A DNA stretch of 64,000 bases from Haloplanus natans DSM 17983 (GTDB lineage Archaea > Halobacteriota > Halobacteria > Halobacteriales > Haloferacaceae), in assembly GCF_000427685.1 (NCBI RefSeq), contig NZ_KE386573.1, positions 3,022,938 to 3,086,937 of the forward strand. The letters are read 5' to 3'. The position numbers were made by a program, and so were the translations under genes. The notes under the pieces were generated by a model. The model was not told the DNA's origin. It did no database searches and worked only from the letters and a program-made list of their open reading frames with translations. Below are positions 16,901 through 61,092 of the stretch, piece after piece (the first letter of the stretch is position 1; the number at the start of each line of letters is the position of its first letter).

Positions 16901-18142
16901 GTGTCCGCTCGATCACGGGTCGCCCTCGTCCGCGCCGTCGTCCACGAGGTGCGGACGCGGGACGTAACCCTGTTGGCCGCCAGCATCGCCTACTACGCCT
17001 TCGTCTCCCTGCTTCCCTCACTCGTCCTGACGACCGTCGTCGCCACCGCCGTCGGGGGAGCGGCGCTCCGGACGGCGGTCCTCGATCTCGCCGGTCGGTA
17101 TCTCCTCCCCGTCGGGCAGGGGGTGGTCGACGAGGCGCTGGCGAACACGGCGGGTCGAGGCGGCGTCACGCTCGTCGGCCTCCCACTCCTGCTCTGGGGT
17201 TCGCTCAAGCTCTTTCGCGGCATCGACACCGCCTTCGCCCGCATCTACGGCACTCCCGCCCGCGATTTCCTCGGGAGCCTCCGGGTCGGCGTGACGGTCC
17301 TCGTCGCCGTCGGCGTCGGCGCCTTCGGCGGCGTCGCCCTCGTCGGCGCCGCGACCCTCATCCGAACGCCGGTCGCCCTCGTTGCCCCCCTGATCTTCTT
17401 CGCCATCCTCCTCGCCGCACTCTTTCCGGTGTACTACCTGACCCCGGCGGGTAGCGTCTCGCCGGGCGAGGCGCTCCCCGGCGCACTCCTGTGTGCCGGC
17501 GGCTGGACGGTCTTCGGGACGGCCTTTGCCCTCTACGCGGCGGCCGCGACGACGAGCGGCCAAGCCGCCCTCTACGGCACGCTCGGGGCGATCCTCCTGC
17601 TCGTGACGTGGTTCTACCTCGCCGGCCTCGTCTTGCTCGTCGGCGCGACGCTGAACGCCGTCCGGGCCGATCGCTCGGTCGACCGGGATCGGCAGGTACA
17701 ACACCCGCCGGACCGAGACGACGTGACGACGGCAATGACCGGCGACGACACGCAAACGGACCCCTCCCCGGCACCGGATATCGAGGACCTCGAGGACCGA
17801 CTCGACTCGGTCCGCGAGGATCTGGACGCCTTCGAGGCCGACGTGGAGGAACGGACGGTCGACCGGCCGGATCTGGAGTCGGAACTGAAGGCGTACGTCC
17901 GCCGGCGGATGCGCCGCGGCCACGCCCGCGGCTGGGGACCCTATCTCGTTCTCCTCTACGGGACGGCCATGACGCTCGGCGCCTTCTATCTCCTCTCCGA
18001 TCTCGTTGCGCTCGTCGCCATGATCGTGATCTTCCTCTCGACGCTCGGGCTGTACGTCCTTTTCGTCCTCGCGGGCGTCGGCTTCACCCTGCTCGGCAAA
18101 CCCGGGCAGGCCCTCGATGCACTCCGGCGGTTTCGGCGCTGA
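16901..18142 (+). CDS. YihY/BrkB-family membrane protein with C-terminal extension
   Basis: Integral membrane protein; residues 1 to about 270 match the YihY family, with six helices and the conserved early segment LAASIAYYAFVSLLPSL and later GTLGAILLLVTWFYLAG. A further 140 residues follow: a charged coiled segment (IEDLEDRLDSVREDLDAFEA), a basic linker and two more helices. I chose the GTG at 16901 (VSARSRVALV); an in-frame GTG at 16838 would add an unlikely Arg/Ala-rich leader. Function unproven. Confidence 0.85.
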   Translation: MSARSRVALVRAVVHEVRTRDVTLLAASIAYYAFVSLLPSLVLTTVVATAVGGAALRTAVLDLAGRYLLPVGQGVVDEALANTAGRGGVTLVGLPLLLWGSLKLFRGIDTAFARIYGTPARDFLGSLRVGVTVLVAVGVGAFGGVALVGAATLIRTPVALVAPLIFFAILLAALFPVYYLTPAGSVSPGEALPGALLCAGGWTVFGTAFALYAAAATTSGQAALYGTLGAILLLVTWFYLAGLVLLVGATLNAVRADRSVDRDRQVQHPPDRDDVTTAMTGDDTQTDPSPAPDIEDLEDRLDSVREDLDAFEADVEERTVDRPDLESELKAYVRRRMRRGHARGWGPYLVLLYGTAMTLGAFYLLSDLVALVAMIVIFLSTLGLYVLFVLAGVGFTLLGKPGQALDALRRFRR

Positions 18143-32536: not shown

Positions 32537-32703
32537 AGCGACCGAGGAAAAAGTGGGATGGGCCCTGCCGGATTCGCACCTCGGTCGTTCCGTTCGCTCC
32601 GCTCGTCCGCTGGGCTCGAATCCGTTCTGCGGTCTTTTTCCCCACGTTTTTGCGAGGGAGCGAAGCGACCGAGGAAAAAGTGGGATGGGCCCTGCCGGAT
32701 TCG
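32537..32703 (-). repeat. Direct repeat of tRNA 3' end and flank (tRNA-Met locus)
   Basis: A 40-bp perfect direct repeat at 32537-32576 and 32664-32703, 127 bp apart. The right copy is the T-arm/acceptor 3' end of the CAU tRNA plus its 3' flank; the left copy is a duplicate with no tRNA body. Between them is a spacer with GAGCGAACG- and CGGAGCG-type sequence and GGATTCGAGCC on the tRNA strand. Confidence 0.85.
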
Positions 32704-32791
32704 AACCAGCGATCACCCGGTGTCCCATACCCGCGACGCGTATCGCGACCACTATGAGCCGGGGGCTTTAACCGGACTAAGCTAAGGGCCC
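32686..32791 (-). tRNA. tRNA with CAU anticodon, elongator Met (or Ile2), intron-containing
   Basis: Reverse-strand cloverleaf with 7-bp acceptor GGGCCCT/AGGGCCC, D stem GCTT/AAGC, anticodon stem CCCGG/CCGGG and T stem GCTGG/CCGGC with loop TTCGAAT. The anticodon loop is CTCATA, then a 31-nt intron at the usual position after base 37, then A. Discriminator is A. A CAU anticodon with an intron fits the haloarchaeal elongator tRNA-Met; Ile2 is the alternative. No CCA is encoded. Confidence 0.88.
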
Positions 32792-40664: not shown

Positions 40665-40931
40665 ACACCGATAGGCGTCCGTGTCGCGTATAATCCTTTC
40701 CGTCGGTCGGGCGGCGCCCCGGAGTATACCTGCGTGGGCGGACACCTGCGCGCCACGCGACGAACAGCCGGGATGCGAACGCCGGGAGCGCGTACGGGCA
40801 CGTCGGCCCGGATATCGTGCCCGCGGAGAGCCGGCGTGTCCGTTCTATCCCCGGTCGACGACCCGGGCCAATAACCGCCCGTTAGCCGCAAAAATCGGGC
40901 GTTAAGCTTCTGAAAGTGGTGATTAGCTATA

Positions 40932-41029
40932 CGTAGGGGTTGTGTTGACGAACCCGTCTCACTCCGGCGACCGGCGATCGGCGGTGGTTCGACTCCACCC
41001 GTGAGTATCCCCCTACGGGGGGTACAGGC
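40932..41029 (+). promoter_or_regulatory. Structured 5' leader with mutually exclusive helices
   Basis: About 98 nt between a TATA-like TTAAGCTT (40902-40909) and the ATG at 41030. Helices: P1 CGTAGGGG (40932-40939) with CCCCTACG (41010-41017); hairpin GACG-AACC-CGTC (40947-40958); TCAC (40959-40962) with GTGA (41001-41004); hairpin CCGG-CGA-CCGG (40964-40974); T-arm-like hairpin GGTGG-TTCGACT-CCACC (40983-40999). The alternative CCCCC-TAC-GGGGG hairpin (41009-41021) uses the P1 3' strand and covers the G-run before the ATG. Confidence 0.6.
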
Positions 41030-42841
41030 ATGCAAGACGACTTCAATCTCTCTCGACGGAAGGCACTGGCCGCACTCGGCACCATCGGCGTCGCCTCGGC
41101 GGGCGCCGGCCTCGGCACGAGCGCGTACTTCAGCGACCAGGAGACGTTCGAAAACAACCGACTCGTGGCGGGCGAGCTCGATCTGAAGATGGACTGGGAG
41201 GAGCATTACTCCGACTGGTCGGCCGACGAGGACGATCCGGGGGTGCCCGAGGGTGACGCCCTCGACATCACGATGGACGAGCCGGCGGACCCGACCCAGT
41301 ACACCGCCTTCCCGCCCGGTGTGGAGGCGTTCGATGGCGAGCCCGGCGACGACTTCGTCAACGGCGATCCGCTCCTGTACGTCAACAACGACGACGTCGG
41401 CCAGTTCATGGACAACACGTCCGTCGAGGCGTTCCCGGATTCGGACGACGACGGGGTACAGGACGAGTTCGACGCGACGAACGCCTGTACCATCCTCGCC
41501 GACGTCGGCAACGACGACGGTGGCCTCGATTCCGACCTGCGGACCGAAAGCAGCCGTGGCGACCCGCTCATCGGCCTCGACGACGTCAAGCCGGGTGACT
41601 TCGGCGAACTCACGCTCAGCTTCCACCTGTGTGACAATCCGGGCTACGTCTGGCTGAACGCGGCCAACGTCTCGGCGGCCGAGAACGGACTCACCGAACC
41701 CGAAGCCGACGACCCCGACGAGACGGGACCGACCGACGAGACGTCGACCTCGGTGCAGAACGAGGTCGAACTCCTCGACGAGATTCAGACCGCCCTCTGG
41801 TACGACACGGACTGTAACAATCTGACCGGCGGGCGTGGGGGCGCGACCGGCTCCGCAGCCGACGTGGCGCTCGTCCTCGACGATTCGGGATCGATCGGCT
41901 CGTCGGAACGGAACGACATCATCAGCGCCGCGAAGGTGTTTATCGACGAACTCAGCACGACCGACCAGGCCGCGACGGTGGCCTTCGGGAGCAGCGCCGA
42001 GGTAGAGCAGCAACTCACACAACTCGACACGCAGGGCAACGTCGACGCGGTAAAAGACGCCATCGACACCTACGGGAGCTCCGGAGTCGGGAGCAACACC
42101 AACATCGACGCGGCGCTCGACGCGGCGAACGGGGAACTGGAGAGCAGTCGCGCGCGCCAGAGCGCGACGCCGGTCATCGTGTTGTTGAGCGACGGCTCCC
42201 CGTCGGCCAACGACGGAGTCGAGGGCACCGACGACGCCCTCGACAACGACTTCGAGGCCGCCGTCGAGGAGGCCGACGACGTGAAAAGCTCCGGGAAACG
42301 CATCATCACCATCGGGTTCGGACTCGACGCCGGCGGCGACGGCGAGAACCTGCTCAGAGCAGTCGCCGGAACGACCGCCAACAGCGAGTCGGACTACACC
42401 GACTACGAGAGCGGCAGCGGCGACGAGCCGGACGACGAGGGCGACTACTTCGCGGCGCCCGAACCGGAGGACCTCCAGGGGCAGTTCGAGGACATCGCGG
42501 GCGTCATCACGACGGGCGAGGAGATATTCTTCCAAGGGTCGCTCCGCAACGCGCTGGCGGCGCTCACCGACGGCAACGGGATCCCCCTCGACGGCGACGC
42601 CGGTGACGACTTCGACGAACTCGGCAGCGATCCGACCGCCAGCGGCCGTGCCTGCTTCCCACAGACGCCCGCGACCAACTGTCTGGGGTTCTCGTGGTGG
42701 CTGCCGGCCGACCACGGCAACGAGATCCAAGGCGACTCCGTCGCCTTCGACCTCGGCTTCTACACCGAGCAGTGCCGCCACAACGACGGGAGCGGCATGA
42801 ACAACGAGGCAGTCGGCAACCCCGACGAACTCGACGCCTGA
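41030..42841 (+). CDS. Surface VWA protein inserted in a TasA/SipW-type domain
   Basis: A 603-residue exported protein. The signal is twin-arginine (LSRRKALAALGTIGVASAG), followed by the SipW/TasA motif GTSAYFSDQETFENNRLVAG. A VWA domain (residues 275-480) has the MIDAS motif DDSGSIGSS, a Thr in GSNTNIDAAL and Asp in LLSDGSPSAND. After it the chain returns to a TasA-like strand (LGFSWWLPADHGNEIQGDS and FYTEQCRHN), so the VWA is nested in the TasA-like fold. Very acidic. Probably a cell-surface fibre or adhesin. Confidence 0.82.
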   Translation: MQDDFNLSRRKALAALGTIGVASAGAGLGTSAYFSDQETFENNRLVAGELDLKMDWEEHYSDWSADEDDPGVPEGDALDITMDEPADPTQYTAFPPGVEAFDGEPGDDFVNGDPLLYVNNDDVGQFMDNTSVEAFPDSDDDGVQDEFDATNACTILADVGNDDGGLDSDLRTESSRGDPLIGLDDVKPGDFGELTLSFHLCDNPGYVWLNAANVSAAENGLTEPEADDPDETGPTDETSTSVQNEVELLDEIQTALWYDTDCNNLTGGRGGATGSAADVALVLDDSGSIGSSERNDIISAAKVFIDELSTTDQAATVAFGSSAEVEQQLTQLDTQGNVDAVKDAIDTYGSSGVGSNTNIDAALDAANGELESSRARQSATPVIVLLSDGSPSANDGVEGTDDALDNDFEAAVEEADDVKSSGKRIITIGFGLDAGGDGENLLRAVAGTTANSESDYTDYESGSGDEPDDEGDYFAAPEPEDLQGQFEDIAGVITTGEEIFFQGSLRNALAALTDGNGIPLDGDAGDDFDELGSDPTASGRACFPQTPATNCLGFSWWLPADHGNEIQGDSVAFDLGFYTEQCRHNDGSGMNNEAVGNPDELDA

Positions 42842-60987: not shown

Positions 60988-61092
60988 GGGGCACGTAGCT
61001 CAGTCCGGATAGAGCGTCGGACTTCTAACCGCACGCGGTCGCGTGTGTGGGAAGTCATCCGACGGTCGTGGGTTCAAATCCCATCGTGCCCG
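60988..61092 (+). tRNA. tRNA-Arg (UCU), intron-containing
   Basis: Cloverleaf: acceptor GGGCACG/CGTGCCC, D stem GCTC/GAGC, anticodon stem TCGGA/TCCGA with loop CTTCTA-intron-A (anticodon UCU), T stem GTGGG/CCCAT with loop TTCAAAT, discriminator G. The intron is about 29 nt, starting ACCGCACGCGG after base 37. Followed by a degenerate copy of its 3' end. Confidence 0.95.

Follow-up and report, generated by a model that had tools for sequence, protein, structure and literature searches.

The locus examined here raises the question of what a structured leader does in front of a haloarchaeal surface-protein gene. The window analyzed, a stretch of 64,000 nucleotides (genome positions 3022938-3086937), contains on its forward strand, like all leader features described below, a gene (41030..42841, ATG at 41030) whose product is an exported protein of 603 aa. 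It carries a SipW-type signal peptide (TIGR04088; 28.6 bits in a profile search, with a cut-off of 19) and a von Willebrand A domain (PF00092; E 9.9e-17), so that a surface-protein gene does follow the leader, as an earlier, sequence-only reading had proposed. The gene is one of a large set of paralogues, represented many times both in this genome and in related ones. The same reading had viewed the leader as a riboswitch-like device in which an 8-bp helix closes a multi-branched structure unless its 3′ strand folds into a hairpin immediately 5′ of the ATG. The comparisons described below indicate that a conserved structured leader is present, and that its architecture differs from the one drawn.

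The two hairpins proposed earlier are found in the sequence: GGTGG-TTCGACT-CCACC lies at 40983-40999, with its T-loop at 40988-40994, and CCCCC-TAC-GGGGG lies at 41009-41021, can be extended to 8 bp (41006-41024) and stands just before the ATG. Folding of the single sequence was no better than folding of shuffles (z 0.01 for 40932-41040; z −0.51 for 40953-41032), and the evidence for structure is therefore comparative. No relevant Rfam match was obtained at the locus, either at the gathering threshold or at E 10; neither ARAGORN nor the Rfam tRNA model called a tRNA there, and no full cloverleaf with an anticodon arm was found. When the leader DNA was used for a similarity search of its own genome, it matched itself only, because the paralogues have structure more than sequence in common. 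We retrieved the sequences upstream of 74 other members of the family; 74 leaders, the window counted, had a usable start, and 37 of these carry the motif.

The element starts with an acceptor-like helix, P1, and continues with a GG 2-5 nt further on and the T-arm (P3). The 3′ strand of P1 adjoins the T-arm, and a linker of 3 nt leads from it to a second hairpin, P4. In the window, P1 is formed by CTCAC (40958-40962) and GTGAG (41001-41005), the GG occupies 40966-40967, and the two hairpins given above are P3 and P4. A variable region (40968-40980) with an optional P2 hairpin, weakly paired in the window, follows the GG, and the inner region from P1 to the T-arm ranges from 8 to about 100 nt across homologues. 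P1 stacked on the T-arm makes a mini-tRNA without an anticodon arm, and the GG is a candidate D-loop-like partner that could dock into the T-loop. The T-loop sequence is TTCGACT in 116 of 141 elements and TTCGATT in 19 of them. The consensus of P1 is CCCAC/GTGGG, with compensatory versions such as CCCAT/ATGGG, CCCAG/CTGGG and the CTCAC/GTGAG of the window. At the junction of P1 and the T-stem, the window has C opposite C (40982-41000), a C-C mismatch in place of a sixth T-arm pair.

Conservation of pairing was measured in two sets of sequences. Among 36 leaders, 7 of 15 pairs had changed on both sides; among 100 further loci, 9 of 15 had done so, and none of 500 shuffles matched the score in either case. 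Covariation across homologues, which had been suggested as a check, upheld the conserved P1, P3 and P4 but not the closing helix of the sequence-only reading. Alignment A2 had its variable region trimmed; a MAFFT alignment with the region kept (A1) misplaced P1. Because P1 partners had been picked by pairing in some rows, we ran a control for partner choice on the 141 elements by permuting the 3′ strands. An exact upstream P1 partner was present in 114 of 141 elements (25 ± 3.5 expected), and in 108 an exact P1 5′ strand was soon followed by a GG (4.4 ± 1.7 with permuted strands). Covariance model R3, derived from 100 other loci without the window, gave the window element 42 bits (E=9e-7), the top match in the 64 kb. 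A second R3 match (17058-17127, E 0.019) was taken as chance because it lies inside a coding ORF.

The closing helix proposed earlier involves an 8-nt inverted repeat, CGTAGGGG (40932-40939) and CCCCTACG (41010-41017), that is present as letters in the window. Its complementarity is peculiar to the window: no homologue has the helix, and the longest complement between post-box and P4-region sequences in 17 sibling leaders bearing a TATA-like box was 2-5 nt (2-4 in most of them). As a conserved structure, the repeat is rejected, given that the 17 sibling leaders have no equivalent. Furthermore, its 5′ strand begins 2 nt past the TATA-like box TTAGCTAT (40923-40930) and should therefore lie upstream of the transcript start. 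This box stands 27 nt before P1, and the spacing is kept in siblings: 25-28 nt in 12 of 18 box-bearing leaders and 32-36 nt in 5, with a single outlier of 6 nt. Conserved spacing places the predicted start a few nucleotides before P1, near 40953 (region 40950-40956), when the position of the box is combined with the standard TATA-to-start spacing of archaeal promoters. The sequence-only reading had chosen TTAAGCTT (40902-40909) as the promoter box and had put the start at 40932-40939, regarding a start downstream of 40940 as incompatible with its model. The box with a conserved distance to the element is, however, TTAGCTAT, and the start predicted from it does fall downstream of 40940. By the same spacing, first-gene promoters stand where the transcript would be expected to begin just 5′ of P1.

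A GTTAA-type block and AAAGTGG are found just 5′ of the TTAGCTAT box in the window (40900-40919) and in sibling leaders L045, L065 and L081. This block is probably a BRE plus a regulator site, and TTAAGCTT belongs to it.

The conserved P1 and P4 occupy separate bases and can form together, which leaves a switch between mutually exclusive forms without a basis. A metabolite riboswitch of that kind would nonetheless account for a conserved structure that precedes a coherent gene set, and T-loops are known from riboswitches. The leader also has in common with riboswitches and with leaders that sequester a Shine-Dalgarno sequence a structured 5′ UTR and a hairpin beside the start codon; it differs from them in that no conserved exclusive alternative fold exists and no ligand is known. 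As the exclusive helix is found in the window only, as P1 and P4 are compatible, as Rfam riboswitch matches are absent even at E 10, and as the length of the inner region varies so much, we consider a riboswitch highly improbable. What the element does resemble is a processing signal of 5S rRNA, as described below.

P4 deserves separate consideration. The hairpin is formed in 112 of 116 copies with a nearby ATG and is more stable than the shuffle mean in 95% of the 116 (median z −2.4). Its pairing is kept through sequence changes, CTTCCTCC/GGAGGAAG and ACCGGG/CCCGGT being examples of compensatory change. The distance from T-loop to ATG is 38-46 nt in most of the 116 copies, and P4 ends mostly 5-9 nt before the ATG, with GGGG(A) as its 3′ strand. 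Control of translation by P4 is possible because of this location. The main rival explanation is built on it: the mini-tRNA would remain uncut as a stable domain or protein-binding site, P4 would hide a Shine-Dalgarno-like G-run, and a bound factor would open or close P4. The sequence and position of the 3′ strand and the narrow distance to the T-loop fit such a leader, as does L080, which has a perfect GGAGG inside P4. The fit is poorer in L033 and L041, where P4 is followed by one more hairpin and by a distinct GGAGG-like site, and in a subgroup (L040, L046 and L060) that lacks the usual P4. Furthermore, translational control leaves the likeness to the 5S element unexplained, and we regard it as rather unlikely. 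In Haloferax volcanii, 72% of protein-coding transcripts are leaderless, and control by structured leaders was judged atypical by the authors (PMC4983044), an additional argument against this explanation.

Of 292 haloarchaeal genomes sampled, 99 contain a match to the element (E<=0.001); the matches cover 35 of 77 genera. A class of structured leaders found in at least 35 genera is noteworthy, given that haloarchaeal transcripts are mostly leaderless and structured leaders are deemed atypical (PMC4983044). When the exact core pattern was scanned against species genomes of bacteria and archaea (84,980 in all), all matches were haloarchaeal; a scan of viral contigs for the exact pattern gave zero matches. 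The element mostly lies about 40 nt before genes for SipW/TasA-type exported (fimbrial) proteins: 73 of 93 scanned downstream proteins match TIGR04088, and many of the 93 match NCBIfam fimbrial TafA, TafC or TafE. Other downstream proteins are of the DUF1102 type, also exported. A few target proteins look cytoplasmic. One good copy of the element (L113, G007:C1:2654917-2654975) precedes a gene for a 59-aa zinc-ribbon-like protein, and another (L164) precedes a gene for a 171-aa protein with cysteine pairs; neither product is obviously exported.

Two further types of upstream region were observed among the paralogues. A second conserved leader, devoid of T-loop, is found in L032, L043, L056, L073 and L077, before paralogues that start with MTNDRQFS or MNDDRQFS; the blocks common to these leaders, before the ATG, are CCCGAACCG and GTCGGC..CGGCGGGC. 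It may be a further structured leader belonging to this gene family. In the G034 array, paralogues without the element (L098-L103) have a common upstream block, CTTTGCAAAGG, which is perhaps a regulator site.

Elements occupy two places, the start of promoter-borne transcripts and the space between ORFs. In tandem arrays of named haloarchaea (49 cases), each element follows the preceding stop codon by 2-163 nt (median about 49), and these short gaps leave little space for a separate promoter. An element that recurs before and between fimbrial genes is probably a signal to cut or control mRNAs. It might also be conceived as a DNA element, an attachment site for an integrase or a site of recombination that descends from the T-arm of a tRNA and has spread along with the gene family: the ends of tRNA T-arms are frequent integrase targets, and the family is both paralogous and arrayed. 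Such a site would hardly require a fixed orientation, a narrow distance to the ATG, conserved promoter spacing or compensatory changes in P1, P3 and P4, and exact matches are absent from viral contigs. We therefore give this possibility almost no credence.

A better precedent is provided by the 5S rRNA of H. volcanii, which is preceded by a t-element cut by tRNase Z according to passages of PMC3296008 and PMC4326828 that cite Holzle et al. 2008, 2012. A model of the mRNA leaders trained without 5S sequences ranked the 5S leader sixth in the window's own genome, ahead of all tRNAs. Reciprocally, six mRNA leaders ranked directly after 5S, and ahead of tRNAs, in a genome-wide search with a model of the 5S leader. 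Alignment A3 and model R3 include one 5S leader (L140), so the match between R3 and 5S is not independent; the independent evidence is the two reciprocal genome-wide searches. In nearly all relatives with a readable leader, an equivalent mini-tRNA and a short linker precede 5S; the GG after P1 is nearly invariant, and the linker between P1 and the 5S sequence (2-3 nt) is similar to that of the window.

The mRNA element thus has in common with the H. volcanii 5S t-element P1, a GG 2-3 nt after it, a T-arm with a TTCGA loop and a linker of 2-3 nt. In contrast, it is located in mRNA leaders before fimbrial/SipW-type genes, its cleavage is predicted, it is followed by P4, and its P1 is CCCAC/GTGGG rather than CCGAC/GTCGG. 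Within the family, the window copy is divergent: it has the C-C mismatch, and its 5S-model match covers the T-arm only (14.6 bits, E 0.09). Hence, the family as a whole is firmly linked to 5S, and the window copy is linked through its membership of the family.

Since the mini-tRNA matches the 5S leader t-element, we take the leader to carry a t-element of mRNA, a processing signal that would be cut upon recognition by tRNase Z, and we hold this interpretation with moderate confidence. The traits of a t-element found here are a T-arm with an acceptor-like P1, the GG, and the reciprocal model matches, the latter at the level of the family. Also in favour are the covariation with its partner-choice control, the detection of the window element by R3, the short gaps in tandem arrays and the position of first-gene promoters. 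What sequence comparison establishes is the structure, along with its conservation in Halobacteria, its position in front of fimbrial/SipW-type genes and its resemblance to the 5S leader t-element; the cut itself is predicted. The element would be a minimal tRNA mimic, with P1 stacked on the T-arm and the GG docking into the T-loop. tRNase Z would recognize the mini-tRNA and cut just 3′ of P1, at about 41005-41008, within a predicted cleavage zone (41005-41009) that contains the linker TAT, and RNase P might cut 5′ of P1. The mature mRNA would then begin at P4, with a 5′ UTR of about 22 nt, and P4 would shield this new 5′ end or adjust access to the start codon.

In tandem arrays, such cuts would separate co-transcribed fimbrial genes in the manner of the tRNA punctuation of mitochondria. 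A more tentative extension, to which we give somewhat less than even chances, is that haloarchaea use tRNA punctuation for protein-coding operons, with tRNase Z and RNase P cutting at a mini-tRNA in front of every fimbrial gene and so releasing separate mRNAs that each bear a protective 5′ hairpin. As in mitochondria, tRNA-like structures lie between ORFs and could be excised to free mRNAs; unlike in mitochondria, they are archaeal and incomplete tRNA mimics, and their excision is putative. From tRNA genes, with which it shares the T-arm, an acceptor-like stem and the T-loop sequence, the element differs in having neither an anticodon arm nor a D stem. Several observations weigh against the t-element interpretation: promoters of tandem genes could lie inside the ORF before them, a first gene that has its own promoter would need no punctuation, the window copy is divergent, and P1 has 5 bp in most copies, compared with the 7 bp of an acceptor stem.

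A literature search found nothing on the mRNA element; Holzle 2012 lay outside its reach and may list mRNA-linked copies, which limits any claim of novelty. If cleavage as an mRNA t-element is true, the role of tRNase Z extends from stable RNA to mRNA, and a way is suggested by which archaea might make separately tuned mRNAs from TasA/SipW-type fimbrial operons.

Elsewhere in the window, the Rfam tRNA model matched 32686-32791 (reverse strand) and 60989-61092 (forward strand). Both matches span 104-106 nt and were not picked up by ARAGORN, as would be expected of intron-containing archaeal tRNA genes.
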